Under the pieces are notes generated by a model that did no database searches, was not told where the DNA came from, and saw only the letters and a program-made list of their open reading frames with translations. A stretch of 34,599 nucleotides of DNA, from the NCBI GenBank assembly GCA_030066655.1, contig JASJBE010000047.1, positions 1 through 34,599 of the forward strand. The letters are read 5' to 3'. Shown here piece after piece: positions 1 through 28,247 of this stretch. The position numbers were made by a program, and so were the translations under genes. The DNA comes from Woeseiaceae bacterium (GTDB taxonomy: Bacteria; Pseudomonadota; Gammaproteobacteria; Steroidobacterales; Woeseiaceae). The number at the start of each line of letters is the position of its first letter. The first letter of the stretch is position 1.

Positions 1-419
1 TGTCGCAGGGCACGCTGGAAGTGCAGACCACGGTGCAGAAAGAGACCGTGACGACCAACGAAGACGGAGAGCAGGTCAAGGAACTTGTTCCGGCCGAGAC
101 GGTGATACCGGGCGAGCGCGTTGTCTACACGATCACGTTTCGCAACACCGGCGACGAGCCGGCCGACGACGTCATTATCACCAACCCGATTTCCGAGAGC
201 CTGACCTATGTCCAGGGTTCTGCGTTCGGCCCCGGTATGGAGCTGCAGTTCTCAGTGGACGGTCAGCGTTTCGCCGCGGCCGAAGACCTGGTGATTGAGA
301 AAGACGGCGAGATGCGTGCCGCCGCGCCGGAAGACTACTCGCACATTCGCTGGATCCTGCAGAGCGACCTCGAGTCAGGCGCCCAGGGGACCGTGCGTTT
401 CAGCGCGCAACTCAAATAG
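1..419 (+). CDS. Small exported DUF11-type protein, 5' end outside the window
   Basis: The reading frame is open at the left edge (codons run from base 3), so the N-terminus and probably a signal peptide lie upstream. About 139 residues are visible. The segment from VIPGERVVYTITFRNTGDEP to the TNPISESLTYVQGS stretch is typical of the DUF11 / conserved-repeat Ig-like fold: a beta sandwich with a 'temporary asymmetry' style N-T-G turn. The protein ends in a strand (GTVRFSAQLK) with no membrane anchor. No catalytic motif is seen. It precedes two more DUF11-type genes on the same strand, with 88 nt to the next start, so a shared surface role is inferred. An internal GTG at 21 is in frame but would leave no signal peptide, so I do not take it as the start. 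Exact function unknown. Confidence 0.75.
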   Translation, partial: SQGTLEVQTTVQKETVTTNEDGEQVKELVPAETVIPGERVVYTITFRNTGDEPADDVIITNPISESLTYVQGSAFGPGMELQFSVDGQRFAAAEDLVIEKDGEMRAAAPEDYSHIRWILQSDLESGAQGTVRFSAQLK

Positions 420-426
420 TGTTTCT

Positions 427-454
427 GGCCAGCCCGCCGCAGGTCGGGCCGGCC
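427..454 (+). other. Intergenic hairpin between the first two DUF11-type genes
   Basis: GGCC-A-GCCCG (427-436) pairs with CGGGC-C-GGCC (445-454) around the loop CCGCAGGT: a 9-bp stem with one internal mismatch. It lies just after the TAG of the first gene. No T-run follows, so it is not a standard intrinsic terminator. It may stabilise the upstream mRNA 3' end or reduce read-through. Confidence 0.45.
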
Positions 455-494
455 GAGTGATTTGAACCTGCACTTTGACAATGAAAGTACGGAC

Positions 495-500
495 AAGGAG
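495..500 (+). promoter_or_regulatory. Ribosome binding site fixing the start at 508
   Basis: AAGGAG lies 7 nt before ATG 508. It is the strongest Shine-Dalgarno match in the first 2 kb and excludes the earlier in-frame start at 475. Confidence 0.7.
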
Positions 501-507
501 TACCGTG

Positions 508-1653
508 ATGAAAGTAGTAACACAAAAACTGGCTACGCTGCTCAAGGTGAGCACGGCGACCGGTCTGCTGGTCTTCGGACAGCAGGCGATCGCTGTCGGC
601 ACCGATGCCGGCACGCCAATCGACAATACGGCGGTAATCACCTACTCGGTGAATGGCGCCACGCAGGACCCGCTGGATGCGATCGCACCGCAGTTCGTGG
701 TCGATCGTGTCGTGAACTTCACACTCGACACCGACAACGCGGCCCTGACGGACACCGCACCGGGTGAAACCGGGGCAATCGTCCTGTACACGCTGACGAA
801 CATCGGTAACTCGCCGATGGACTTCCGTCTGGTGGCGGACAATCTGGCGTCCGGCGACGATACCGACATGGAGCCAGGCCCGTTCGTGGCCTTCGTCGAC
901 ACGAATGCCAACGGCGTGCTCGACGCTGGCGAGTTCGACTTCGTCGACGCGCTGGCCGAGGGTGACACCGTCACGATCACGGTGCTGGCCGACGCGCCGG
1001 CCATTGTCGTGGACGGTCAGACTGCGCTTGTCGAACTGCAGGCGATCGCTGCGGATTCAGGCACGACGGTCAGCCCGGTCGCCCCCGGCACGCTGGGTGC
1101 GGATCTTGATGACACCGCCCCCGACACGATCGCTGGCGTCGAGACCGTATTCGACGAAGACGGTCCGGGCGTCGGCGGCGACGGTATCCAGGTGTTCGAC
1201 ACCGATGGTTACCAGTTTGACTTCACCGCGCTCGCGATCAGCAAGGGCTCAGCGGTTATCTCGGATCCGGTCAACGGAACGAGCTCACCGTTTGCGATCC
1301 CCGGCGCCATTGTCGAATACACCGTCGGTATTTCAAACCCGGGCACCTCATCGACGACCCTCCTGACCATTACGGACGACATCCAGGATGACCTGAACTT
1401 CCAGATCGCAGTCGCTGACTACGGCGCTTCGGGTGAGAACGTACGTATCGTCTTCACCGACGACAGCGCTGGCGGCACGGTCACAACGAGCTACTGCGTT
1501 GCAGAGGTGGGAGTTGACACCAACACCGACGGCTGCCGCGTCGATCCGACCGGCGGTGCCGGTGGCGTACCTCAGCTGATCATTACGGTCCCGAACCTGG
1601 ACCCGAATGATTCGGTTGACGTGCAGTTCCGCGCAGAGATCGACAACAGCTAG
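508..1653 (+). CDS. Secreted DUF11-type protein with an EF-hand-like calcium loop
   Basis: Start ATG 508 is chosen because AAGGAG (495-500) sits 7 nt upstream; the in-frame codon at 475 would put the ribosome site inside the gene. The 381-aa product begins with a signal peptide: basic MKVVTQK, a hydrophobic stretch, and QQAIA before the likely cut. The mature N-terminus (DNTAVITYSVNG) resembles the same region of the giant protein downstream, suggesting a shared domain. At least two Ig-like DUF11 stretches follow (around GETGAIVLYTLTNIGNSP and GAIVEYTVGISNPGTSSTT). Residues 131-142 (DTNANGVLDAGE) fit a 12-residue EF-hand loop with acidic or polar ligands at 1, 3, 5, 9 and 12. Two Cys near the C-terminus (SYC and DGC) could form a disulfide. 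There is no anchor or barrel; it is probably periplasmic or surface-associated. Specific function unknown. Confidence 0.8.
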   Translation: MKVVTQKLATLLKVSTATGLLVFGQQAIAVGTDAGTPIDNTAVITYSVNGATQDPLDAIAPQFVVDRVVNFTLDTDNAALTDTAPGETGAIVLYTLTNIGNSPMDFRLVADNLASGDDTDMEPGPFVAFVDTNANGVLDAGEFDFVDALAEGDTVTITVLADAPAIVVDGQTALVELQAIAADSGTTVSPVAPGTLGADLDDTAPDTIAGVETVFDEDGPGVGGDGIQVFDTDGYQFDFTALAISKGSAVISDPVNGTSSPFAIPGAIVEYTVGISNPGTSSTTLLTITDDIQDDLNFQIAVADYGASGENVRIVFTDDSAGGTVTTSYCVAEVGVDTNTDGCRVDPTGGAGGVPQLIITVPNLDPNDSVDVQFRAEIDNS

Positions 1654-1662
1654 ATCACTGAC

Positions 1663-1690
1663 GGAACGTCATCACGGTGCTTTATTCATT
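1663..1690 (+). promoter_or_regulatory. Weak sigma-E-like promoter candidate before the giant surface protein gene
   Basis: GGAAC (1663-1667) and TC (1686-1687) are separated so that AAC and TC are 18 nt apart, the same distance as in the better candidate before rseP. The -10 reads TCATT and lacks the usual final A, and the -35 lacks the TT after GGAAC. The match is short and could be chance. Confidence 0.2.
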
Positions 1691-1797
1691 GCGCAAGTTG
1701 GTACGCCTGATGTTTGCCATGGACGGCGAACTCGGGCGTGCTTTTGTGTCATCGGGACCACCCGGTGGCGGCGCCTCGCGCACTGAATTCGTCAAAT

Positions 1798-1825
1798 CTC
1801 GGGGGAAACAGACGTTTCCCCCGAG
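1798..1825 (+). other. Perfect 12-bp stem-loop before the giant surface protein gene
   Basis: CTCGGGGGAAAC (1798-1809) and GTTTCCCCCGAG (1814-1825) are perfectly complementary around an AGAC tetraloop. No T-run follows. It falls inside the longest possible N-terminal reading frame of the giant protein but upstream of the start that gives a normal signal peptide. It is therefore more likely part of a 5' untranslated region that tunes expression. Confidence 0.7.
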
Positions 1826-1850
1826 GCACGTCTGGGCTGAGCGCTCAAGC

Positions 1851-4800
1851 GTGGCGATTCGCACTGTTTGCGCCTTGCTGGTCGCCTCAGCGACCGGATT
1901 CAACCAGGCAATCGCGGCGCCCCCGGGTGCCGAAATCGAGAACCAGGCGAGCTTTTCCTACCTGACCGTGCAGGGACAGCCGGAGCTGCTCCAGAGCAAT
2001 ACCGTCCAGCTGACAACGGCGGTCATTCGCAGCCCCGCCAGCGTCGAACTGACGCGCGTGATCCAGAACGGTTCAGGCCTGTACCAGGAGACCGTCGGTC
2101 CGGCTGCCTGCGAGCAGAATGGCAGCTTCTCGGATCTCGCGGCCCCGACACTCGTCGGCGGCACGCTCATCGATCCGACGCTCGTGCAACAGATCAACGC
2201 CAGCGAGAGCTACAACCTCAGCGAACCGATCTTCCTGCGCCTGTCTGACAGCGACCAGAACCTGGATTACCAGGTGATCGAATACGCGACGGTCACGGTC
2301 AGCAACGCCATTACCGGCGATGCCGAAGTCATTCGCCTCACTGAGACCGGCCCGGATACCGGTGTGTTCGCAGGCTACGTGCCTAGCATCGGCGCCGCAG
2401 CAACGCCTGGCGACTGTCGTCTGCAGGCGGCGGCCAACAGCGACATCCGAGTGGCTTACACGGATCCCGCGGACCCAACCGACACGGCTCAGTCGATCGC
2501 CATCGTCGATCCGACTCAGCGTGTGTTCGAGACAACGACCGGCACGGTCGTGAGCGGAAGCCTTGTCGAACTGATCGATACGAATACCGGGTTGCCCGCC
2601 ACCGTCTTCGGCAACGACGGTGTCAGCCAGTTCCCGTCGTCGGTCATCAGCGGCGCTACGACGACCGACAGCGGCGGCACGGTATACGTGTTTGCGCCGG
2701 GCGAATTCCGTTTCCCGGTCGTGCCCGACGGTGACTATCGCATCGTAGTCACCCCACCGCCGCAGTTCACCGCGCCGTCGGTCATCAGCGCGAGCGCGAT
2801 TCAGAACCTGCCGGGTGCGCCCTACGACATCAACCCGGCGTCTTTCGGCCAAACCTTCAGCAAGCAGGGCGGCCTCTCGTTCGCCGTGGATATCCCGGTC
2901 GACCCGAATGCGTCGCAGCTCTTCATGCAGAAGCGAACGCAGGCAACCAGCGCCGCGCCGGGCGACTTCGTGCGTTACGAACTGTCGATCGAAAACAGCG
3001 GCACTGCCGGTGTCGCGAGCAGTCTGCGTGTCGTCGACCAGCTGCCTGCCGGAATGCGATACGTGCCCGGATCGACGCGCATCAATGGGGCGCTTGCCGC
3101 GGATCCGGCGATCACTGGCGATACCCAGACACTGGAATTCAGCCTCGACGCACTGTCCGCGTCAGAGAGCACAACGATTACTTACGTCGTCGAAGTCGTC
3201 GGCGGCAAGCGCGGTGACGATCTCGTCAACCGCGCGACGGCCTTCGCGGCCGGAGGCCTGACGTCCAACGAAGCGACCGTTGCCCTTCGCCTGACCGAAG
3301 ACCTGTTCCGCAGCACCGGTACGGTGATCGGCCGCGTCATCGAAGGTGACTGCTCCGCCGGGACCTTCACCGAGGAGCAGGGCGTTGCAGGCATTCGCGT
3401 CTACCTCGAAGATGGCCGTTACGCGGTCAGCGATGAGGGCGGGCGTTTCCATTTCGAAGGCCTGGATGCGGGTACCCACGTCGCGCAGCTTGATCGCTTC
3501 ACGGTGCCGGCCTATTTCGACGTTGTTGGCTGCAATGACAACGCCGACTATGCGGGCCGCCCGGACTCGCAGTTCGTCAAGCTCTCCAAGGGTGGCCTGA
3601 AGCAGGCGAACTTCTACCTGCGCCGCAAGCCGGCGCCGCAGGGCCGTATCGAGCTCGAACTCAAAAGCCAGGGCGGCGACACGGCCGAAGCCGTCAACTA
3701 CGAGTTGCTGATGAACGGCATCGGCAACGTGACGATCCGCAATATCGACCTGTTGGTCGTGCTGCCGCAGGGCATCAGTTTCGAACCGGGCAGCCTGAGG
3801 ATCGATGGTAATGACCTCGGTGACCCGAGGATCATGGGCCAGGCCGTCTCGATGGCCCTGCCGGACCGCCATGGCAACTGGTCGGGCAAGCTGACGTTCG
3901 CCGCCACGATAGCCCCGTCGGTGGTCGGCGAACTGGTCACCAAGGCAATCGCGACGTTCGACACGCCGATGGAGGCGAAACAGAAGACGCCGGTCGCAGA
4001 GACCCGCATGCAGCGCGAGCCGGCCGTCATGGAAAATGCCGGCTACGTGCTGGACCTCAAGTTCGATGTGCTGTCGGATGTGCTGTCGGATGAGGACAGG
4101 CTCAAGCTCGACCAGCTGATCAGCGACTGGCGGGGCGTTCGCGACGTGCGCATCAGCGCGATCGGCCACAGTGACAGCCAGCGCATTGCGCCGCGCAACC
4201 AACACGTCTTCGCCGACAACTATGCGTTGTCCCGAGCCCGGGCACTGGCCGCAGCGGCCTACCTGGGTGCGTCGTTGCGGGTCGCCGAGAATGGCATACA
4301 GGTCGATGGCCGCGGCCCCGATGACCCGGTCGCGACGAATGCGACAGCCGACGGTCGCCAGAAGAACCGTCGCGTTGAGCTGATCTTAAGCGGCGTGCGC
4401 CCGAGCAAACCGTCGTTCCTCGAAGTGACGAAGGCCGCGTCGGGCACGCAGACGGCGCCGACCACCGGCGCCGTGCCGGGCAGCGAGCTAATCGAGGACT
4501 CGCGCTTCAAAGTTGACCCCGATGCCGGATCACCGAGGTCGCAGGTCGAGGCCAACATCGAGACCCTGGACAAGGGCTACGGCTTCGTGCTGCCGGAGCA
4601 GGGCTTCAACCCGGCGATCCCGGCGACGAAGGTGTCGGTCAAGCACCGCCCCGGACAGAAAGTGCGGCTGACCGTCAACGATATCGCAGTGAGCCCGCTC
4701 GGTTTCGACGCCGTCGTCGAGAATGCCGCTGAGACACTGGCCGTCAGCCGCTGGCGCACCGTCGGACTCGAGGACGGTGAGAATCGTATTCGCGCCGACA

Positions 4801-7640
4801 TCCTGAACGCAGACGGCAGCGTCGCGAAAACGATCAGGCGTGACGTGTATTACGCCGGACCGCCCATTCGTGCCGAGGTCATCGAGGATCGTTCGAATCT
4901 TATCGCCGACGGCAAGACCAGGCCGGCGCTGGCGATCCGCCTGCTCGATCGCTCGGGCCAGCCGGCACGCCCGGGCATGACGGGCAATTTCAGCGTTCGC
5001 GATCCGTATCGCTCGTGGTTCGACGTGGAGGACGCGCGGACCAACGACCTGATTCGCATCGGCGATCGCAAGGCCCACTATCGCATCGGCAAAGACGGCA
5101 TCGCTTTCGTCGAGCTGGCGCCGACCACACGGGCCGGTGAGCTGATTGTCGACCTCGAGTTCGAGAATCAGCGCGCACAGGAGGTCCGCGGCTGGCTCGC
5201 GCCCGCCGATCGCGACTGGATCCTGGTCGGCTTCGCCGAGGGGACGGCGGCACACAGGACCTTGTCGGACAACATGAGTGCGGCGATGGACGCGGGCTTC
5301 GAGGACGGCTACGCCGACGAGGGCCGCGTTGCATTCTTCGCGAAGGGCCAGATCAAGGGTGAGTACCTGCTGACGCTGGCCTACGATTCGGACCGCCAGC
5401 GCGACAAGAGCCGGTTCGAGACCGTTGTGGATCCGAATGCCTACTATCCGCTGTACGCCGACGGCAGCGAGCAGCGTTTCGAGGCGGCCAGCCAGCGCAA
5501 GCTCTACGTGAAACTCGAGCGCGAGCAGTTCGTTGCGCTGTTCGGCGACTTCGATACCGGGCTCAGCGTCACCGAGCTGACCCGCTTCCAGCGCGTGTTC
5601 AACGGCTTCAAGGCAGAATATCGAGGCGACTCGATCGGCTACACCGTGTTTGCAGCCGAATCCGACCAGGCATTCAACCGCGATGAGATCCGGGGAGACG
5701 GCACGTCGGGCCTGTACCGCCTGTCGAGAGCTCCGATCGTCGCGAACAGCGAAACCGTCCGCATCGAGGTTCGTGATCGCTTCGATTCCGGCCGCGTGCT
5801 CAACACGCAGGCCATGACGCGCTTCCTCGACTACACCTTCGACCCCCTGAACGGGACCCTGTTCTTCAAGCAGCCCGTGCCAAGTCGGGACCTGGACTTC
5901 AACCCGGTGTTTATCGTCGTCGAATACGAATCGCAGACGAGCGCCGACGCAGACCTGGTCGCCGGTGGTCGCGTGTCGGCCGGCGGCAGAAACTTCGAAG
6001 TCGGAGCGACTTACATCACCGATGAGACTGAAGGCGCGGAGGCCGAACTCTCGGGCGTGGACCTGCGCTGGCAGGTGAACGCGAGTACGTTGGTCAAAGC
6101 CGAGTATGCGGCCAGCGAGGCGGTGCAGGGCGGCACGTCCAGGAGTGGTAGCGCCAGCAAGATCGAGGTTGAGCACAACTCGGAGCGTGCCGACATTCGC
6201 GCCTACATTCGTGAGGTCGAAGACGACTTCGGGCTGGGCTTCCAGTCGGCATCGGACAGCGGCGTTCGTCGTCTGGGCATCGAAGGCAAGGGCAAGATCT
6301 CCGAGTCGCTGACGCTCAAGGGCGAGGCCGCCTGGCAGCAACAACTGGCGACCGAGGACATCCGGAACCTGGCCAGGGCGACGCTGCGTTACGACCGCGG
6401 CGGATTCGACGCGAGCCTTGGACTGACGCGAGCCGAGGACAAGTTTGAGGACGGCGATCGTCGCGTCAGCGATCTTGCCGAGGTCGGCGTGTCACAGCAG
6501 TTCTTTGACAACCGCCTGCGCCTGAGAATCAGCGGTTCCACCGCGCTGGGCGACGCCGCCGAGAATGCCGACTACCCCGATAGGATCGTCGTTGGCGCCG
6601 ACTTCAGGCTGCGCGACAACGTGGAGCTCGTGAGCGAGTATGAGAAGGCGTCGGGCGAGAACATCGACGCGACGATGACCCGTGTCGGGCTTCGTGCATC
6701 GCCCTGGCGACGAGCTGAGCTCAATAGCTCCGTGACCAACGAGGTTACCGAGTTCGGTCCCAGGGTGTTTGCCAACGTTGGACTCGTGCAGGGCTTCAAG
6801 CTCAGCGATCGCTGGCTGCTGGATATCGGCGTTGACCAGAGCAACACGCTTACCGGGTCCGGCTTCAGGCAGTTCGACCCCGATACCGAACTCGTCAGCG
6901 GCTCGCTCAACGACGATTTCCTCGCCGCATTCGTCGGCGCAATGTACACCGGTGATGTCTGGAGCGCGACGTCACGGCTCGAGCTGCGCAATGCCGACTC
7001 CGAGGAGAGGAACTCGCTGCTGTTCGGCTGGTATCGGGAACCGCAGAAGGGGCACGGCTTGTCGGCCAGCCTGACGGTCTTCGACAGCGAACTGTCCACG
7101 GGCATACAGCAGACCGCGGCCGACCTGACCTTCGGCTGGGCGTGGCGCATGGCGGACAGCCGCTGGTCGTTCCTCGATCGTCTAGACCTCGTGTACGAGG
7201 ATGCCAGGGGCGACGGTTCCGCGTCGACGACCTGGCGAGTCATCAATAACTTCAACGCCAACCGGCGCATCAACGCGAAGACGCAGCTATCGCTGCAGTA
7301 CGCCTTCAAGTACGTGCGCGACGAATTCGATGCCGATGCGTTCACGGGCTACAGCGACCTGGCGGGCTTCGACCTGCGCCGCAGCATCAACGGTCGCTGG
7401 GACTTAGGCGTGAACGCGAGTGTGTTCAGCGCCTACGAATCCGGTACGCGCGACTACAGCGTCGGCGCCGACATCGGGCTCAACCTCGCGACGAACATGT
7501 GGCTGTCGCTCGGCTACAACGTGACCGGCTTCCACGATGACGACTTCGCTGCGGCGCGCTACTCGGCGCAGGGCCCGTATATCCGCTTCGCAATCAAGGC
7601 CGACCAGCGCACGTTGAAGGACATCGCGGGTATTCGATAA
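1851..7640 (+). CDS. Giant outer-membrane protein: DUF11 modules, OmpA-like domain, Ig-like segment, C-terminal beta-barrel-like region
   Basis: The start is uncertain. The frame is open from GTG 1677 (1,987 aa), but GTG 1851 gives 1,929 aa with a clean signal peptide (MAIRTVCALLVASATG, then AIA|A); neither has a strong ribosome site. Approximate modules in nucleotides: N-terminal strand-rich domain shared with the preceding gene (1920-2060); a segment with LTETGPDTGVFAGY (2280-2400); DUF11 (2915-3295); carboxypeptidase-regulatory/SdrD-like module (3318-3530); second DUF11-like stretch (3642-3970); OmpA-type peptidoglycan-binding domain (4038-4388) with a TADGRQKNRRVEL motif; invasin-like Ig segment (about 4890-5160); and a long run of alternating amphipathic strands (about 5300-7590) consistent with an outer-membrane barrel. 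The last residues are KDIAGIR rather than a terminal Phe. Inferred role: an outer-membrane anchor or scaffold tied to peptidoglycan. Family membership of the barrel is not recognised. Confidence 0.8.
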   Translation: MAIRTVCALLVASATGFNQAIAAPPGAEIENQASFSYLTVQGQPELLQSNTVQLTTAVIRSPASVELTRVIQNGSGLYQETVGPAACEQNGSFSDLAAPTLVGGTLIDPTLVQQINASESYNLSEPIFLRLSDSDQNLDYQVIEYATVTVSNAITGDAEVIRLTETGPDTGVFAGYVPSIGAAATPGDCRLQAAANSDIRVAYTDPADPTDTAQSIAIVDPTQRVFETTTGTVVSGSLVELIDTNTGLPATVFGNDGVSQFPSSVISGATTTDSGGTVYVFAPGEFRFPVVPDGDYRIVVTPPPQFTAPSVISASAIQNLPGAPYDINPASFGQTFSKQGGLSFAVDIPVDPNASQLFMQKRTQATSAAPGDFVRYELSIENSGTAGVASSLRVVDQLPAGMRYVPGSTRINGALAADPAITGDTQTLEFSLDALSASESTTITYVVEVVGGKRGDDLVNRATAFAAGGLTSNEATVALRLTEDLFRSTGTVIGRVIEGDCSAGTFTEEQGVAGIRVYLEDGRYAVSDEGGRFHFEGLDAGTHVAQLDRFTVPAYFDVVGCNDNADYAGRPDSQFVKLSKGGLKQANFYLRRKPAPQGRIELELKSQGGDTAEAVNYELLMNGIGNVTIRNIDLLVVLPQGISFEPGSLRIDGNDLGDPRIMGQAVSMALPDRHGNWSGKLTFAATIAPSVVGELVTKAIATFDTPMEAKQKTPVAETRMQREPAVMENAGYVLDLKFDVLSDVLSDEDRLKLDQLISDWRGVRDVRISAIGHSDSQRIAPRNQHVFADNYALSRARALAAAAYLGASLRVAENGIQVDGRGPDDPVATNATADGRQKNRRVELILSGVRPSKPSFLEVTKAASGTQTAPTTGAVPGSELIEDSRFKVDPDAGSPRSQVEANIETLDKGYGFVLPEQGFNPAIPATKVSVKHRPGQKVRLTVNDIAVSPLGFDAVVENAAETLAVSRWRTVGLEDGENRIRADILNADGSVAKTIRRDVYYAGPPIRAEVIEDRSNLIADGKTRPALAIRLLDRSGQPARPGMTGNFSVRDPYRSWFDVEDARTNDLIRIGDRKAHYRIGKDGIAFVELAPTTRAGELIVDLEFENQRAQEVRGWLAPADRDWILVGFAEGTAAHRTLSDNMSAAMDAGFEDGYADEGRVAFFAKGQIKGEYLLTLAYDSDRQRDKSRFETVVDPNAYYPLYADGSEQRFEAASQRKLYVKLEREQFVALFGDFDTGLSVTELTRFQRVFNGFKAEYRGDSIGYTVFAAESDQAFNRDEIRGDGTSGLYRLSRAPIVANSETVRIEVRDRFDSGRVLNTQAMTRFLDYTFDPLNGTLFFKQPVPSRDLDFNPVFIVVEYESQTSADADLVAGGRVSAGGRNFEVGATYITDETEGAEAELSGVDLRWQVNASTLVKAEYAASEAVQGGTSRSGSASKIEVEHNSERADIRAYIREVEDDFGLGFQSASDSGVRRLGIEGKGKISESLTLKGEAAWQQQLATEDIRNLARATLRYDRGGFDASLGLTRAEDKFEDGDRRVSDLAEVGVSQQFFDNRLRLRISGSTALGDAAENADYPDRIVVGADFRLRDNVELVSEYEKASGENIDATMTRVGLRASPWRRAELNSSVTNEVTEFGPRVFANVGLVQGFKLSDRWLLDIGVDQSNTLTGSGFRQFDPDTELVSGSLNDDFLAAFVGAMYTGDVWSATSRLELRNADSEERNSLLFGWYREPQKGHGLSASLTVFDSELSTGIQQTAADLTFGWAWRMADSRWSFLDRLDLVYEDARGDGSASTTWRVINNFNANRRINAKTQLSLQYAFKYVRDEFDADAFTGYSDLAGFDLRRSINGRWDLGVNASVFSAYESGTRDYSVGADIGLNLATNMWLSLGYNVTGFHDDDFAAARYSAQGPYIRFAIKADQRTLKDIAGIR
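4065..4088 (+). repeat. 12-bp perfect tandem duplication inside the OmpA-like domain
   Basis: GATGTGCTGTCG occurs twice in tandem (4065-4076 and 4077-4088), followed by GATG. It encodes DVLS-DVLS at the first strand and turn of the OmpA-like domain, where the family usually has one F-x-x-x-S-x-x-L motif. The second unit looks like a recent in-frame slippage insertion. Confidence 0.75.
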
Positions 7641-7683: not shown

Positions 7684-7703
7684 CTTTGTGTAACCTTCCG
7701 ACC

Positions 7704-9623
7704 GTGATCACGCTGTCCGACTTCTTTGGCGATTCCAGCCCCCTGAAGACGCACCTGCCGGGCTTCCAGCCGCGGGCGGTGCAGGGCTTTATGGCCGACG
7801 CCGTGGCAGAGGCGATCGACGACTCGAGACGCCTGGTCGTCGAGGCCGGCACCGGGACCGGGAAGACCTTCGCCTACCTCGTGCCGGCGCTTTTGAGCGG
7901 CAAGAAAACGATTATTTCGACCGGAACGAAAGCGCTGCAGGACCAGCTGTATCACCGCGACCTGCCGCTGGTCGGCAAAGCCATCGGCCGTCCGGTCACG
8001 ACGGCGCTGCTCAAGGGGCGCGCCAACTACCTGTGTCTGCAACGTCTCGACCAGGTCGACTCGGTGGCGGCATCGCTTAGGCAAGATATTGTCGCCGTCA
8101 ACGAATGGCGCCACCGGACTCGCACCGGCGACCGGGCGGAGCTCGTCGACGTGACTGAGGATTCGTCGGTCTGGCCCATCGTCACATCGACGTCGGACAA
8201 CTGTCTCGGCCAGAAATGCCCGCTCTACAACGACTGTTTCGTCGTCAAGGCGCGCCGCGCGGCGCAGGAAGCCGATCTCGTCGTCGTCAACCATCACCTG
8301 CTGCTGGCCGATCTCGCGATGAAAGAGAGCGGCTTTGTTGAATTCCTGCCCGGTGCCGAGACGGTCATCGTAGACGAAGCACACCAGCTCCCGGACCTCG
8401 CGACGCAGTTCTTCGGCGTGTCGCTCGGTAGTCGCGAGCTCGAGCGCCTTGTCGAAGAGACCCGTGCGGCAGCGTTGGGACACGCGAACAGCGAATTCCT
8501 CGGGCGAATCGACGGCGCGGATACGGCGTTACGAAAACTGCGGGCGGCCGCGCCGAGGGACGAGGGCAGGCACCAGCTCGCCGACGTCGTCTATACGCTA
8601 AGGCCCGCGATGGACGAGCTGACGGACGCGCTGCACGGCCTCGTAGCCGGGCTCGAGGTCTTGGCGGATGCGTCGCCGGAGCTCGAGAAGGCGGCCGAGT
8701 TGAGCATGGCCTACCTCGAGAGGCTCGGCCATCTCGCCAACGAGGACGGGTGGGACGGCCTGCGCTGGCTGCAGGTGAACCCTCGCAGCCTGCGGCTGCA
8801 CCTGACGCCATTGGACGTGTCCGACACGCTGTCCTCGCTGCTGGGCAATGGTTACCAGTCGTGGATTCTGACATCGGCGACGCTCGCCGTCGGGGAAGAC
8901 TTTTCGCACTACCTGTCGCGCATCGGCCTTCAGGATGCGACGGCCCTGTCGTTTCAGAGCCCGTTTCCGATCGCGGACAACAGCCTGTTGTACCTGCCGC
9001 CCGACCTGCCGCAGCCGTCCAGCCGAGACCACACCACGAGCGTCATGGAGACGCTGGCCGACATGCTGAAGCTCGGCGTCGGCGGCGCTTTTTGCCTGTT
9101 CACCAGTCATCGGGCACTGCAGGCAGCCAGGCGCTGGTCACGAACCCACCGTCGGCAGTTCGGCGGCCGCAAGCTGCTCGTCCAGGGCGATGCGCCACGC
9201 GACGACTTGCTGCGGCGCTTCCGCGACGCCGGGGACGCCGTGTTGCTCGGTACCGGCAGTTTCTGGGAAGGCGTCGACGTCCGCGGTCGCGCGCTGTCGA
9301 TGGTCATCATCGACAAGCTGCCGTTCACATCGCCGGCCGATCCGCTGTTGATGGCGCGCCTCGAATACCTGAAGCGGGCCGGCGGTAATGGCTTCATGGA
9401 GCACCAGGTTCCGCAGGCGGTTCTGAGCTTGAAACAGGGCGCCGGTCGACTGCTGCGTGACCAGGAAGACTACGGCGTTGTCGTGTTGTGCGACCCGCGC
9501 CTGACGCAGAAGCGCTACGGCAGCATCTTCCTCGACGCGCTCAAGCCAATGCCGGTCACGGACTCGCTCAAAGACGTGGCGTCCTTTCTCGCGAAACGTG
9601 ACCGCGCCGGAGCGGTTGCGTGA
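7704..9623 (+). CDS. yoaA: ATP-dependent DNA helicase YoaA (DinG/XPD-like family)
   Basis: A superfamily 2 iron-sulfur helicase that unwinds DNA 5' to 3'; YoaA acts in DNA damage tolerance, in E. coli with the HolC subunit. With GTG 7704 as start the product is 639 aa, near the family length; an in-frame TTG at 7686 would add six residues. Visible motifs: Walker A EAGTGTGKT (residues 47-55); four cysteines fitting the [4Fe-4S] cluster (C111, C167, C172, C178); DEAH box at 224-227; and C-terminal helicase motifs including LGTGSFWEGVDVRG and a QGAGRLLRD stretch. The stop overlaps the tsaB start in GTGA, so the two are translationally coupled, a pairing common in gammaproteobacteria. No exonuclease domain is present, which fits YoaA or short DinG. 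Confidence 0.92.
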   Translation: MITLSDFFGDSSPLKTHLPGFQPRAVQGFMADAVAEAIDDSRRLVVEAGTGTGKTFAYLVPALLSGKKTIISTGTKALQDQLYHRDLPLVGKAIGRPVTTALLKGRANYLCLQRLDQVDSVAASLRQDIVAVNEWRHRTRTGDRAELVDVTEDSSVWPIVTSTSDNCLGQKCPLYNDCFVVKARRAAQEADLVVVNHHLLLADLAMKESGFVEFLPGAETVIVDEAHQLPDLATQFFGVSLGSRELERLVEETRAAALGHANSEFLGRIDGADTALRKLRAAAPRDEGRHQLADVVYTLRPAMDELTDALHGLVAGLEVLADASPELEKAAELSMAYLERLGHLANEDGWDGLRWLQVNPRSLRLHLTPLDVSDTLSSLLGNGYQSWILTSATLAVGEDFSHYLSRIGLQDATALSFQSPFPIADNSLLYLPPDLPQPSSRDHTTSVMETLADMLKLGVGGAFCLFTSHRALQAARRWSRTHRRQFGGRKLLVQGDAPRDDLLRRFRDAGDAVLLGTGSFWEGVDVRGRALSMVIIDKLPFTSPADPLLMARLEYLKRAGGNGFMEHQVPQAVLSLKQGAGRLLRDQEDYGVVVLCDPRLTQKRYGSIFLDALKPMPVTDSLKDVASFLAKRDRAGAVA

Positions 9624-11103: not shown

Positions 11104-12414
11104 ATGTCCAAATCTGCTCGAAAACTCCTCGTCGGACTCCTGCTGCTGATGGTGTCGGGTCTCGCGCTGGGTTCGCTTTACGGTGATCCTGTGACCGGTC
11201 TCCTCGTGGCGGCTTTCCTCGCACTGGTCTGGCAGGTCAGACAGTTGCTCGCGTACGACAGAGTAGTGCGAACCGGTGAGCCCGACCATTTCCAGCGCGG
11301 CGACGGAATCTGGCAACAGCTCTACTCACGGTACCGGTTCGAACACCAGAAAAGCGAGGTCTACAAGCGGCGCTACCGCGACCTCTTAGCCGAGATTCGG
11401 AAGTCCACGGACGCGATGCCTGACGCGGCCGTCGTGATCGACAGCGACAACCGGATCGTCACGTCCAACCGCGCTGCCAAGGAGCTTGTCGGGCTGCGCC
11501 CGAAGAAAGACAAGGGTGAGCGCATCGAAGACATTCTTCACCACCGGGATTTCTCCAAGCTCCTGAACGATTCAGACTTCAGCGCGGTCGTGGACCTGCC
11601 GTCGCCCTTGCGGCCCGGCCACTGGCTCAACTGTCGCATCGTGCCCTACGGTGTTGACCAGCGATTGGTCTTGATACGAGACATCACCGATCGGCTAAGG
11701 CTCAATAAGATGCGCCGCGACTTCGTCGCCAATGCGTCCCACGAGTTGCGCTCGCCTCTCACCGTGATCAGCGGTTACCTCGAGGGGCTGACGGACGAAG
11801 ACATCCCGCCCGATCTGCATGTGCCTTTCCACCAGATGCAGTCACAGGCGCGGCGTATGAACCAGGTCATCAACGAACTGCTCGAGCTGTCGCGCGTCGA
11901 GAGCGCAGGACAGGCGAGCTTCGACGACAGTGTCGACGTCGCCGGCTTGATGCACGCGGCCGCCAAGACCTACCGCAGTGAACCCGGCGCACCGAACATC
12001 GTCGTAGACGCGGACCCGACCGTACGACTGCTCGGCAATGCGACACAGATCGAGTCGGTGATCACCAATTTTGTGTCCAACGCCATTCGATACACACCCG
12101 TTGACGGCAAGATCGTTATGCAATGGTCGGCGAAGAAGAATGCGGCCAGGCTCGCGGTCACAGATACCGGCGAGGGAATACCCGCCAAGGATCTTCCGAG
12201 GCTCACCGAACGCTTCTTCCGGGTCGACCGGGGGCGTGCCCGGTCTGACGGCGGCGTAGGCCTCGGGCTCGCGATCGTCAAACACATTCTCAGCCGGCAT
12301 GACACGGAACTGCAGATCGAGAGTACGCCCGGTGTCGGCAGCACGTTCAGCTGCGTATTCGACCAGCACAGACTGGATCGCGTTTCCCAGGCTCAAAGCG
12401 ACGAGGTTGCCTAG
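11104..12414 (+). CDS. phoR: Phosphate regulon sensor histidine kinase PhoR
   Basis: A membrane histidine kinase that phosphorylates PhoB when phosphate is scarce and dephosphorylates it otherwise. The 436 residues hold two closely spaced N-terminal hydrophobic segments (about 8-25 and 30-42), a linker, a PAS domain (around STDAMPDAAVVIDSDNRIV, about 105-200), then the HisKA motif NASHELRSPLTV with H213, an N-box in NFVSNAIRYTP, a G1 box DTGEGIP and a G2 box GVGLGLAIVKHI. There is almost no periplasmic loop, as in other PhoR proteins, so it probably senses through the Pst/PhoU complex rather than phosphate itself. It ends without overlap; a 248-nt gap follows before dsbB. Confidence 0.95.
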   Translation: MSKSARKLLVGLLLLMVSGLALGSLYGDPVTGLLVAAFLALVWQVRQLLAYDRVVRTGEPDHFQRGDGIWQQLYSRYRFEHQKSEVYKRRYRDLLAEIRKSTDAMPDAAVVIDSDNRIVTSNRAAKELVGLRPKKDKGERIEDILHHRDFSKLLNDSDFSAVVDLPSPLRPGHWLNCRIVPYGVDQRLVLIRDITDRLRLNKMRRDFVANASHELRSPLTVISGYLEGLTDEDIPPDLHVPFHQMQSQARRMNQVINELLELSRVESAGQASFDDSVDVAGLMHAAAKTYRSEPGAPNIVVDADPTVRLLGNATQIESVITNFVSNAIRYTPVDGKIVMQWSAKKNAARLAVTDTGEGIPAKDLPRLTERFFRVDRGRARSDGGVGLGLAIVKHILSRHDTELQIESTPGVGSTFSCVFDQHRLDRVSQAQSDEVA

Positions 12415-24468: not shown

Positions 24469-25830
24469 ATGATGGATGTGCTTGGCAGCATTCTGGCGTT
24501 CGTCGTCGCTATTTCCGTGCTGGTGGCCGTGCACGAGTACGGCCACTACATCGTTGGCAAATGGTCAGGGATGAAGGTCTTACGGTTTTCGATCGGCTTC
24601 GGCAAACCGCTGTATAAGAAAGTAGCCGGGCCCGATCAGACCGAATATTGCATCTCGGCCATCCCGCTTGGCGGTTATGTACGTTTCCTGGACAGCCGTG
24701 AGGCTGAAATCGATTCGCGTGACGACGGGCGCGCGTTCGATCAGCGGCCGGTGCCGTTGCGGATAGCGACACTGCTGGCCGGACCGTTCTTCAATTTCGC
24801 CTTCGCGATCGTTGCATACTGGGCAATCTTTATCTACGGCGTTCCGACAGTGGTTCCCGCGGTAGGCTCAGTCGAACCGGAATCCTACGCGGCTGAAGCC
24901 GGCCTCGTGTCCGGCGACAAGATCATCGCCGTCGGTGATCGCGAGACTGCCGACTGGGAAGCGACCCTGCTCGCCATGCTCGACACGATGGTAGCCACCG
25001 GCTCGATCCCCCTGACGCTCGAAGACGATGACGGATTCCAGCGTCAGACCGCCATCGACGTCGGCGACGACGCGTCCCGACTCACCGAGCCCGGCCTGCT
25101 GTTCGACGGCCTTGGTTTCCGTCCGTGGGGTGTCTCGGATATTCCGCCGATCATCGGTGAACTGACGGAGGACAGCCCGGCGGGCTACGCGGGCTTGAGG
25201 TCCGGCGACCGGATCACGCGGATCGACGGCGTGGCTATCGGTAACTTCAGTGACCTCGTCGAGGCCGTCTCCTCGCGAGCCGATCAGTCGGTCGACGTGG
25301 TCTACGAGCGCGGCGGCGAGGCCTACGACACGGTGGTCAATATCGCGTCGATGGAGCGCGACGGACAAACGGTCGGTCGCCTCGGCGTGGCGGCAGGCGT
25401 CAGCGGGACAGATTACGTCTACCTGAAACAGTTTGGTCCGGTCGACAGCGTCGGTCGTGCGATCCAGCGAACCTGGGACTCGACGGTGTTCACGGTTCGG
25501 ATGCTGGCCCGAATGGTCACCGGCGACGTGTCCGTCAAGAACATCAGCGGGCCGATCAACATCGCGCAGTTCGCCGGCGATTCCGCCGAGCGGGGGTTGA
25601 GCAGCTTCCTGAGTTTTCTGGCGATCGTCAGCATCAGCCTCGGGGTGCTGAACCTGCTGCCGATTCCGATTCTGGATGGCGGCCAGATCGTCTACCAGAC
25701 GATCGAGGGCCTGAAGGGAAGTCCGCTGTCGGAGCGGGCGCAGATCGCGGGACAGCAATTCGGTATCCTTGCGCTGCTGCTACTGATGAGCTTTGCGTTC
25801 TACAACGACCTGGCAAGAATATTCGGATGA
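24469..25830 (+). CDS. rseP: Site-2 intramembrane zinc protease RseP
   Basis: Cleaves RseA within the membrane to release sigma-E under envelope stress, and clears remnant signal peptides. The 453-aa product has the catalytic HEYGH (residues 22-26) in the first membrane segment, two periplasmic PDZ domains (about 120-200 and 205-290; GYAGLRSGDRITRIDG is the carboxylate-binding part of the second), and the last ligand D403 in LLPIPILDGG within a late segment. E. coli has HEFGH; the Tyr change is conservative. The stop overlaps the bamA start in ATGA. RpoE and RseA genes are not in the window. Confidence 0.96.
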   Translation: MMDVLGSILAFVVAISVLVAVHEYGHYIVGKWSGMKVLRFSIGFGKPLYKKVAGPDQTEYCISAIPLGGYVRFLDSREAEIDSRDDGRAFDQRPVPLRIATLLAGPFFNFAFAIVAYWAIFIYGVPTVVPAVGSVEPESYAAEAGLVSGDKIIAVGDRETADWEATLLAMLDTMVATGSIPLTLEDDDGFQRQTAIDVGDDASRLTEPGLLFDGLGFRPWGVSDIPPIIGELTEDSPAGYAGLRSGDRITRIDGVAIGNFSDLVEAVSSRADQSVDVVYERGGEAYDTVVNIASMERDGQTVGRLGVAAGVSGTDYVYLKQFGPVDSVGRAIQRTWDSTVFTVRMLARMVTGDVSVKNISGPINIAQFAGDSAERGLSSFLSFLAIVSISLGVLNLLPIPILDGGQIVYQTIEGLKGSPLSERAQIAGQQFGILALLLLMSFAFYNDLARIFG

Positions 25831-28247
25831 GGGAAGATTCGGTTTTGAAGTCCAAAAAGACTTTTTCAGCCTTCTGGCACACGTTCGTCGCGATCATTGC
25901 CATCGCGCCTGCACTGGCGAGCGCGGCGTTCGAACCGTTCGTCGTTCGCGACATGCGCGTTGAAGGGCTGCAGCGAATTTCTGAAGGTACCGTCTTCAAT
26001 TACCTGCCTATCAACATCGGCGATCAGGTCGACGGCGTTCGAATCGGCGAGGCGATTTCTGCGCTGTATCGCCAGGGTCTGTTTGACGACATCGAGATGC
26101 GTCGCGAGGGCAACGCGCTCGTCATCGTCGTCAAGGAACGGCCGTCGATCGAGAGCTTCGAAATCGACGGCAACAAGGACATCAAGTCCGAGGACCTGTT
26201 CGACAGCCTGCGCAATGTCGGACTCGCCACCGGCAAGACCTTCGATCGCTCGGTTCTCGACAACGTCGAGATGTTCCTGCGGGAGCAGTACTACGATCGC
26301 GGCAAGTACGGTGTTCAGATCGAGAGTGAAGTCACCCCCCGACCGAATAACACCGTGTCGATCATGATCAACGTCAAGGAAGGGGCGAGGGCGAAGATCA
26401 GGCAAGTCAATATCGTCGGTAACGAGATGTTCACCGAAGCAGAGATCCGGGAGGGTTTCACGCTGGACACGGCCAACTGGTTGTCGTGGATTCGCCAGGA
26501 CGACCGGTACGAGAAGCAGGGACTGGAGGGCGACCTCGAGACGCTGGAGTCGTTTTACAAGGATCGTGGCTACGCGGACTTCAGCATAGAGTCGACCCAG
26601 GTCGCGATATCACCGAACAAGAAAGACATCTTTGTCACGATCACGATTCGCGAAGGCGAGAGATACACGATCTCCGACGTGAAGCTGGTCGGCGAGATGG
26701 TAATCCCGGAGGCCTTCCTGAGCGTACTGGTTCTCGCGCAGCCGGGTTCGACATTCAACCAGGGCCTGCTCACGCAGTCTGCAGAACTGATGCAGATTCG
26801 TCTCGGCGAACAGGGCTATGCGAACGCCGATATCCAGCCGGTCCCGGAACTGGATCACGAGACCAAGGAAGCGACGGTCCGGTTTTTCATCGATCCGAAG
26901 CAGCGTGTCTACGTGCGACGAATCAACTTCCAGGGCGTTGACCAGGTCGACGACGAGGTGCTTCGACGTGAGATGCGCCAGCTCGAGGGCGCTTACCTGT
27001 CCAATCGCCTCGTCGATCGATCCAAGGTGCGCCTGCAGCGACTTCCTTACATCGAGAGCGTGGAAGTCGAGAATACGCCCATACCGGGCAGCCCGGACCT
27101 CGTCGACGTCGACTTCGACCTCGAGTACCGTATGCCGGGCCAGTTCTCGGGCGGCGTCGGCTACTCCGAGTCGCAGAAGCTGATCCTGAACGGCAGTATC
27201 GTCCATACCAACTTCCTCGGCTCCGGCAACCGGGTCGCACTTGACCTCAATTCCGGGCGCTTCTCGAAGCTGTACAGTATTTCGCATTCGGATCCGTATA
27301 CGACGATGGATGGTGTGCGACGTACGGTCGGGCTTAACTTCCGCGACATCACGCAGTTCGTATCCGGTGCCTCCGATTTCTCGACGTCGACAGGTGCTCT
27401 GTCGGTGGAGTACGGCTACCCGATTGGTGAAGTGCAGTCGCTGTCTTTCGGACTGTCCTACCAGCGATCAGAGTTGTTGTCGTCGGCCGGTAGCACCCAG
27501 CAGGCGCAGGACTGGGTCCTGAACAACGGTAACTCCTTCATCGAGGATTCCGGCCTCGGCTTTGATGTCTTCGGCACCAAGTTCGACACGGTCGAACTAC
27601 TTGCCGGCTGGACCTACGACAGCCGCAACCGGGCGTTGTTCGCCACCCGAGGCACTCGCCAGTCGCTGTTCTTGTCGATGGCCGTGCCGGGCAGTGACGT
27701 CGAGTACTACACGGCCCGCTACGGATTCACCAAGTACGTCCCGCTGACGCGACGCTGGACCGTCAAACTGAACACCGATTTTGCGATGGGCGAGGGTCTC
27801 AACGAGACGACGGCTCTGCCTCCGTACAAACAGTTCTTTGGCGGTGGTCCTCAGTCCGTCCGGGGATTCCGCGAGTCCTGGCTCGGCCCGAGGGACACCA
27901 ACGGTAATCCGTACGGCGGCAACGTGTTGGTCGCGGGTCAGGTAGAGCTTATACTCCCGCTGCCCGAGAAGTTCTCCAGCCAGGCCAGAGCATCGCTGTT
28001 TTACGATTTCGGCAACGTGTTCAACACGGGCGAGGTCGCTTTCACGGACAACCTGGGCGCGCCGATTTCCTATGAACCGGACTTCGATGAGCTGAAAGTT
28101 TCCGTCGGCGTCGGCGTCGAATGGCTCGCGCCGCTCGGACTGTTCAGATTCAGCTACGCCTATCCACTTAACAAGTACGATGGCAACGACAGATTTTACG
28201 GGGACGACGTCGAGAGATTTCAATTCTCCATTGGACAAGCATTTTAA
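25827..28247 (+). CDS. bamA: Outer-membrane protein assembly factor BamA
   Basis: The central subunit of the BAM complex, which inserts beta-barrel proteins into the outer membrane. The 806-aa product has a signal peptide (VAIIAIAPALASA), five POTRA domains (about residues 33-430; the first begins FVVRDMRVEGLQRISEGTV), and a 16-strand barrel with the conserved GPQSVRGF loop motif. It ends in Phe (FSIGQAF), the C-terminal signature of outer-membrane proteins. Length is typical (810 aa in E. coli). The start is the ATGA overlap with rseP, giving translational coupling of the protease and the assembly factor. Confidence 0.97.
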   Translation: MREDSVLKSKKTFSAFWHTFVAIIAIAPALASAAFEPFVVRDMRVEGLQRISEGTVFNYLPINIGDQVDGVRIGEAISALYRQGLFDDIEMRREGNALVIVVKERPSIESFEIDGNKDIKSEDLFDSLRNVGLATGKTFDRSVLDNVEMFLREQYYDRGKYGVQIESEVTPRPNNTVSIMINVKEGARAKIRQVNIVGNEMFTEAEIREGFTLDTANWLSWIRQDDRYEKQGLEGDLETLESFYKDRGYADFSIESTQVAISPNKKDIFVTITIREGERYTISDVKLVGEMVIPEAFLSVLVLAQPGSTFNQGLLTQSAELMQIRLGEQGYANADIQPVPELDHETKEATVRFFIDPKQRVYVRRINFQGVDQVDDEVLRREMRQLEGAYLSNRLVDRSKVRLQRLPYIESVEVENTPIPGSPDLVDVDFDLEYRMPGQFSGGVGYSESQKLILNGSIVHTNFLGSGNRVALDLNSGRFSKLYSISHSDPYTTMDGVRRTVGLNFRDITQFVSGASDFSTSTGALSVEYGYPIGEVQSLSFGLSYQRSELLSSAGSTQQAQDWVLNNGNSFIEDSGLGFDVFGTKFDTVELLAGWTYDSRNRALFATRGTRQSLFLSMAVPGSDVEYYTARYGFTKYVPLTRRWTVKLNTDFAMGEGLNETTALPPYKQFFGGGPQSVRGFRESWLGPRDTNGNPYGGNVLVAGQVELILPLPEKFSSQARASLFYDFGNVFNTGEVAFTDNLGAPISYEPDFDELKVSVGVGVEWLAPLGLFRFSYAYPLNKYDGNDRFYGDDVERFQFSIGQAF

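Follow-up and report, generated by a model that had tools for sequence, protein, structure and literature searches.

We analysed a contig of 34,599 nucleotides from a Woeseiaceae bacterium (JASJBE010000047.1 of assembly GCA_030066655.1; G000:C133:1-34599 in our numbering), referred to in its whole length as the window, which begins with three genes, B, C and D, that belong with a fourth gene, A, to a gene set A-B-C-D. At the sequence level, DUF11 domains are cut between the proteins of this set: the DUF11 body at the C-terminus of A, B and C lacks its closing hairpin, which mostly turns up, detached, at the start of A, C and D. We propose that A-B-C-D encodes a strand-donation assembly with isopeptide links, in which D would be the base and B a non-covalent cap, and we assign this reading a probability of roughly 45%. 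Pairing in trans, location at the cell surface and closure of the D barrel are the parts of it that we infer.

A four-gene set at the start of the window

The window is one whole contig, and its first base falls inside gene B. Its three open reading frames (ORFs) on the same strand (Table 1) had been recorded in a preliminary description, made from the letters alone, as a set of three adjacent genes; the ORFs are real, but the set has four genes, one of them on another contig. Gene A (328 amino acids (aa)) precedes B in locus L006 and in other relatives, and in the window's genome it was found at the end of contig C155 (5286-6272 of 6,391 bases), 119 bases from the contig end. Because A lies at this contig end, B is cut at the window start and A stands upstream of B in relatives, we take the unit to be A-B-C-D.

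B had been described as a short DUF11 protein. It passes the Pfam DUF11 cut-off (31.1 versus 24.6 bits), but is short through the contig cut: the whole protein in L006, where D is 92% identical to the window D, has 165 aa and an apparent signal peptide (judged by eye). D also passes this cut-off (38.4 bits), whereas C (18.8 bits) and the A protein of L006 (22.4 bits) fall below it, so that the earlier assignment of DUF11 to all three proteins holds in Pfam for the first and third only. The third protein, given as roughly 1,930 aa, is indeed a giant, with 1,987 codons when counted from a GTG, a tentative start because the stretch ahead of the apparent signal peptide is not conserved.

DUF11 domains cut between proteins

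A DUF11 repeat model was built from 123 complete repeats in 15 giant arrays of related loci and divided into a body and a closing hairpin, the hairpin part not being trained on A-D. The hairpin and residue counts given below leave out 47 rows under score or length limits. Among the omitted rows are every row of L147, the split A gene of L087, D genes that are broken or cut (L079, L081 and L091) and A/C-like genes from L092-L096 and L138-L144; the 44 C proteins include the first half of a broken C from L042. The body match ended 0-3 residues from the C-terminus in 31 of 33 A proteins, 0-5 residues from it in 35 of 52 B proteins and 0-7 residues from it in 41 of 44 C proteins, and this local match stopped 29-63 residues earlier in two A, two C and 17 B proteins, the one remaining C being a broken half. 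Since the body runs to the C-terminus in A, B and C, no room is left there for a closing hairpin.

The hairpin model instead scored best at the N-terminus in 31/33 A, 39/44 C and 44/53 D proteins (first 420 residues), and in 6/52 B proteins; the corresponding numbers for shuffled sequences were 10/165, 20/220, 10/265 and 9/260. A second model, partly trained on these proteins, placed an N-terminal hairpin at a fixed limit in 32/33 A, 44/44 C, 38/53 D and 0/52 B proteins. The detached hairpins of A, C and D sit right after the apparent signal peptide. When hidden Markov models (HMMs) were aligned with one another, residues 22-62 of A, from all 19 aligned A proteins and without motif selection, matched repeat columns 109-142 (score 24.7, probability 63), and residues 216-328 matched columns 9-107, which do not include the hairpin. 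In hhalign comparisons, N-termini of A, C and D that had been picked by motif (14/19, 18/19 and 21/21, respectively), a selection that favours the result, matched columns 112-149 with scores of 19.3, 19.2 and 16.4. Control domains scored 1.3 to 4.7 against the repeat, and the A, C and D N-termini scored -0.1 to 7.0 against control domains.

The preliminary description had noticed an N-terminal domain shared by C and D and suggested duplication; the similarity is real, but it is better understood as a shared donor hairpin than as plain domain duplication. Longer C-like proteins of L095 and L096 still begin with a hairpin and end with a body, and a hairpin-like stretch follows their internal body when judged by eye, although HMMs did not call it. 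A search of the PDB for structural relatives of the A family returned none at E values up to 1.

Candidate isopeptide residues

In a DUF11 domain the closing strand bears an Asn that bonds to a Lys with the help of an Asp. The DUF11 domain was recently renamed CLIPPER, and the passages of PMC12617251 consulted here describe a crystal structure (9IFR) in which domain 712-812 holds the isopeptide triad Lys715, Asp748 and Asn806. The profile of the complete DUF11 domain of D (DUF11a, Table 1) matched 9ifr at E 3.1e-5, the cleaner match, in an alignment that stops before the Asn; its whole-sequence E of 2.8e-9 to 9flp, an Aureispira grappling-hook protein, is a sum of weak stretches of which the best has E 1.3. 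Judged from position and motif and not from superposition, Asn806 of 9IFR probably corresponds to the Asn of the closing hairpin.

The C-terminal body carries both Lys and Asp in 33/33 A and 43/44 C proteins and the detached hairpin carries Asn in 31/33 and 44/44, so that all three residues occur together in 31/33 A and 43/44 C proteins. An Asn-x-Ala motif follows the body in none of the 33 A and in 2 of the 44 C proteins, and the hairpin Asn of both lies about ten residues past the apparent end of the signal peptide (by eye). In D, the donor Asn is present in 49/53 proteins, and DUF11a bears in cis the same Asn-x-Ala...Ser-Asn signature as the detached hairpins. The cis triad of this domain is kept at Lys in 46/53, at Asp in 51/53 and at Asn in 46/53 proteins, and donor Asn and full cis triad occur together in 43/53. 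B has both Lys and Asp at the bond sites in just 8/52 proteins, Asn replacing Asp in 39/52; since B mostly lacks the catalytic Asp, it may act as a non-covalent cap. Some operons also encode large extra DUF11 proteins (for instance L078, 798 aa; L083, 849 aa; L088, 802 aa; L132, 709 aa), which end like A and C, with Lys and usually Asp or Glu, and near the start of which no donor hairpin was seen (both by eye).

A possible strand-donation chain

We propose that, after export, the hairpin of one subunit would complete the C-terminal DUF11 body of the previous subunit, and that an autocatalytic Lys-Asn bond would lock the joint at A and C. The donors would be A, C and D and the acceptors B, A and C, three of each, with B and D as the ends, and the simplest assembly would be a head-to-tail chain B-(A/C)-D. 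D would serve as the base, its giant barrel lying in the outer membrane and its OmpA domain, in many species, reaching to peptidoglycan. B would be a non-covalent end cap, and the large extra DUF11 proteins, which end as acceptors, might provide alternative, adhesin-like tips. The chain would be displayed outside the cell; a passage through D's own barrel is a guess.

The main rival to this chain is self-closure of A and C, and it weighs against the chain. The proteins would then be circular permutations, in which the hairpin of A or C closes the C-terminal body of the same chain and a bond within the molecule makes a ring of the two-domain monomer, B and D alone pairing in trans. Such self-closure agrees with the presence of one donor and one acceptor in A and in C, which balance within the monomer while B and D balance each other, and with the retention of B in loci where A was not found. 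However, donor and acceptor would probably lie at opposite ends of an elongated chain, and the longer C-like proteins of L095 and L096 are still cut at their ends despite more intervening domains, which would make closing in cis harder. We regard self-closure as less likely than the chain.

Several other observations speak against the strand-donation chain. The hairpin gives a short and weak signal (median 8.4 bits in A, 6.3 in C and 4.9 in D), and at an E limit of 0.1 the hairpin was found in just 38 of the 53 D proteins, being absent, for example, from L092-L094 and most of L133-L144. The distant A/C-like proteins of L092-L096, L138-L144 and L147 fall below the score limits, some of them showing no N-terminal hairpin, and in 10 of the 53 D proteins the residue pattern is incomplete. 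The extra acceptor-only proteins upset a strict donor-acceptor balance, and 6 of the 34 genomes with B in the order (G003, G024, G048, G058, G059 and G067) gave no D match at E ≤ 1e-20. As OmpA would be in the periplasm, the simplest topology would keep the N-terminal arm of D periplasmic, not displayed outside. Finally, a Pfam search of the four genes A-D recognised no chaperone gene of the PapD-like kind.

Architecture of the giant protein D

Table 1. Features of genes B, C and D, with positions in the window.
Feature	Position	Strand	Remarks
Gene B	3..419	+	5' end cut by contig start; single DUF11 body that lacks its closing hairpin, and no hairpin at N-terminus (acceptor only)
Gene C	475..1653	+	Exported; detached hairpin at N-terminus and incomplete DUF11 body at C-terminus (donor and acceptor)
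C, detached N-terminal DUF11 hairpin	601..714	+	From hhalign of C N-termini to the DUF11 repeat end; candidate bond Asn51 (625-627)
C, C-terminal DUF11 body without closing hairpin	1222..1650	+	Model ends 1 residue from C-terminus; candidate Lys257 (1243-1245) and Asp301 (1375-1377)
Gene D	1677..7640	+	Putative base protein, 1,987 codons counted from GTG
D, detached N-terminal hairpin (putative donor)	1923..2021	+	Candidate Asn89 at 1941-1943
D, rest of N-terminal domain	2022..2873	+	Invariant Cys145 and Cys247
D, complete DUF11 (CLIPPER) domain, DUF11a	2904..3296	+	Lys419, Asp454 and Asn518 in cis; from Pfam, relatives 9ifr/9flp and conservation
D, CarboxypepD_reg/SdrD_B-like (Cna-B-like) domain	3309..3641	+	Below Pfam cut-off in window D; invariant Cys559 and Cys619
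D, second DUF11-like domain, degenerate	3639..4016	+	Without bond triad at two sites checked
D, OmpA peptidoglycan-binding-type domain	4029..4412	+	Residues 785-912; accessory in family
D, two Ig-like domains ahead of barrel	4542..5204	+	Beta-rich by model
D, CORE	5211..5936	+	Contains best-conserved stretch of D; also present in split relatives
D, C-terminal barrel-like region	5937..7634	+	Residues 1421-1986; holds most of 32 predicted strands

The C-terminal barrel of the preliminary description is supported but not proved. An AlphaFold2 model (mean predicted local distance difference test (pLDDT) 66, predicted template modelling score 0.43 for the whole) places 32 consecutive strands with short turns at about residues 1412-1973 of D, and the C-terminus is not predicted as soluble domains; CORE is mostly below pLDDT 50. 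The C-terminal region also shows amphipathic, strand-like alternation (z 7.6 over shuffles, as against 2.7 for the N-terminal half), which is consistent with a barrel. Ahead of it, the CarboxypepD_reg/SdrD_B-like domain passes the Pfam cut-off in the D homologue of L127. Cysteines 145, 247, 559 and 619, none of them in the barrel, are kept in 21/21 aligned D proteins and perhaps form two disulfides in the N-terminal arm.

A PDB sequence search with CORE-BARREL gave no significant relative, the one match being unrelated and at chance level (E 0.61). SprA of the type 9 secretion system is a very large outer-membrane barrel; a relationship of D to it is unsupported by this PDB search, and the VIA list showed other barrels. 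A classical type Va autotransporter, with its C-terminal 12-strand barrel, does not fit D, as 32 strands are predicted and no such Pfam family was found. POTRA and ShlB-type families did not appear in the Pfam results for D, nor did an usher family at E values up to 1.

OmpA as an accessory domain

The OmpA domain proposed for the middle of the D chain was borne out by Pfam (residues 796-898, 32.6 bits versus a cut-off of 27.2). It precedes the barrel (785-912 versus 1421-1986), and so does not stand C-terminal to it. This order had been presented as odd, but in relatives the domain comes and goes. It occupies the same position in 21 of 22 D proteins of the order (window, L006, L007 and L038-L055; L056 lacks it), and gave no match in 14 D proteins (L056, L080, L081, L089, L127-L135 and L137), including all nine from the A-B-C-D loci of one family in another class (L127-L135; eight genomes). 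It was also without a match in the more distant L095, L096, L144, L146 and L147. In L088 and L092-L094 it stands ahead of the CnaB-like domain, L142 has two copies of it, and in L145 and L147 it forms a separate gene just downstream. In the last of these, on an Acinetobacter haemolyticus plasmid, the OmpA-family gene (11166-12248) directly follows the D-like gene without an OmpA match, within a DUF11 cluster. As OmpA is absent, moved, doubled or separate in relatives, peptidoglycan anchoring appears to be a recurring add-on and not part of the core.

These results bear on the envelope tether that had been suggested earlier. In such a reading D would be a spacer or tether in the periplasm that links peptidoglycan to the outer membrane, and A, B and C would extend it within the periplasm. 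The OmpA domain of D has a conserved GH.D...NRRV pattern, and the four invariant cysteines would fit periplasmic disulfides. However, the domain is missing from all nine D proteins of L127-L135, and DUF11/CLIPPER repeats are described, in the passages of PMC12617251 consulted, as stalks of surface adhesins. Since OmpA is not essential, a tether of this pure kind is quite improbable.

Split relatives and a possible export role

Related loci of a split type bear on another possible function of D, that of exporter in a two-partner-like system whose barrel would secrete DUF11 adhesins, a DUF11-CnaB module serving as docking signal. Such loci consist of a DUF11-array protein (1,305 to 2,958 aa where whole), which usually ends in DUF11 or DUF11-CnaB, followed by a gene that matches CORE and, in many cases, BARREL and that has 0-3 OmpA domains; the two genes often overlap by 4 bases (for example, in L008, L145, L149 and L151-L154). 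One split pair lies in the window's genome (L008, G000:C12, 1209-14546), where MotA/ExbB, two ExbD, a 498-aa gene with no clear Pfam family, a DUF11/SdrD_B protein of 1,631 aa and a protein of 1,711 aa that combines three OmpA domains with CORE follow one another. This subtype, in which MotA/ExbB, two ExbD and another large gene immediately precede the pair, comprises six loci (L008 and, by sequence, L151, L152, L154, L155 and L166; Pfam-checked in L008 alone), which hints that some members of the wider family are energised; L008 may be a motor-driven one.

For D itself, we consider the export role improbable. Its Pfam matches include no POTRA, ShlB-type or autotransporter family, the motor set was not seen near the window or the A-B-C-D loci (one weak MotA/ExbB-like match, in L080), and export would leave the cut DUF11 domains unexplained. 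Export and strand donation are nevertheless compatible, and both can hold.

Distribution and gene order

Among 147 genomes of the order, D was matched at E ≤ 1e-20 in 38, in 30 of them above 250 bits, B in 34 and A in 29 (the match in G091 being its C gene). In all 29 genomes matching A, D is matched as well, at more than 250 bits, and 28 of them have B, the exception, G019, being an assembly of about 450 contigs. A-B-C-D was intact and in order in 19 of the 21 loci of the order examined closely; in L042 C forms two overlapping ORFs, and in L056 A was undetected. L057, fetched together with these 21 loci, is of the split type.

In the wider class, 16 of 20 loci hold B, at least one A/C-like gene and D, and the other four are cut by contig ends (L081 and L091), have an unmatched 360-aa ORF alone upstream of D (L090) or are split (L097). 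The 20 loci of the phylum search, 17 from another class and 3 from the same class, comprise ten with A-B-C-D and seven in which B and D are accompanied by one or two A/C-like genes with weak matches, the remainder being a weaker case (L146), a locus at a contig end (L136) and a split locus (L145). At E ≤ 1e-60, D was matched in 38 of the 398 phylum genomes, some of them nearly complete and from another class. In Novosphingobium sp. THN1, an alphaproteobacterium, a plasmid has A, part of C, and D spread over several ORFs. Gene A of L087 (3604-4599, reverse strand, oriented) is apparently divided into two neighbouring 163-aa ORFs, one with the hairpin and the other with the C-terminal body. Homologous genes do occur together in order, class and phylum loci, and the possibility of joint assembly that the preliminary description had raised holds up.

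Genomic surroundings

A gene with GAF and sigma-54-activator domains (Pfam) lies upstream of A in the window's genome (L126, G000:C155, 2599-4998), the same gene type stands upstream of A in L006, and ORFs of similar size occur upstream in several relatives. Control of A by sigma-54 was considered and rejected, the best upstream site, scored against the sigma-54 consensus, being no better than shuffles in 26/26 loci. Downstream of D, positions 7686-34599 form a housekeeping stretch by Pfam (ten ORFs checked), with a DinG-like helicase (7686-9623) followed by GlnD, a DapD-type succinyltransferase, Map, RpsB, Tsf and an M50 protease, among others; a BamA-type Omp85 protein (25827-28247) and LpxB are also encoded there.

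Comparison with known systems

9IFR comes from a fibrillar adhesin of Acinetobacter silvestris that, in the passages of PMC12617251 consulted, also has an OmpA-like anchor. It shares with A-B-C-D the domain family and the Lys-Asp-Asn triad, of which D holds a complete copy. Whereas a single chain holds the whole domain in 9IFR, here the strand that closes the domain and bears the Asn lies at the molecule's other end or on another protein.

In chaperone-usher pili, such as type 1 and P pili, the Ig-like subunits have an unfinished fold and carry a donor extension at the N-terminus (PMC9715654, in the parts consulted). The sequence arrangement in A-D, with incomplete C-terminal Ig-type bodies and putative N-terminal donors, would fit such a scheme. 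The tip subunit of chaperone-usher pili is without a donor. Unlike in those pili, no chaperone was recognised among A-D and D matched no usher domain; the donor here would be a DUF11 hairpin, the joint a predicted covalent Lys-Asn bond and the base a giant barrel, often with OmpA. SpyTag/SpyCatcher is a split isopeptide domain that joins two chains and was engineered from CnaB2. In contrast, the split proposed here would be natural, in a CnaA-like DUF11 domain, and repeated along an operon.

The closest precedent that we found for strand donation combined with a covalent link is the thread of Sulfolobus acidocaldarius, for which the parts of PMC9715654 consulted report strand donation, an apparent covalent link at the subunit N-terminus, between Asn57 and the N-terminal alpha-amino group of subunits n and n+2, and a proposed cap without one partner site. 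This thread differs in its chemistry and in being archaeal, and those parts of the source make no mention of DUF11 for it. DUF11 also forms part of a spore-appendage anchor in a paper that, in the parts consulted, treats the donor strand as well (PMC11952670). Within the open-licence literature of PubMed Central, our searches turned up no description of an A-B-C-D system. A-D would be a variant of strand-donation fibres, with a chance of being a kind of its own.

We suggest, tentatively, that the set could represent a natural split-isopeptide fibre of Gram-negative bacteria, which would assemble itself covalently without sortase or chaperone, be capped by B or by large adhesins, and be rooted on the D barrel that donates the first hairpin. 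If this is true, A-B-C-D would be a widespread means by which Gram-negative bacteria assemble surface structures covalently, perhaps with no need for a sortase or an usher; proteins annotated just as 'DUF11 domain-containing' would gain a role, and natural tag-catcher pairs would become available.

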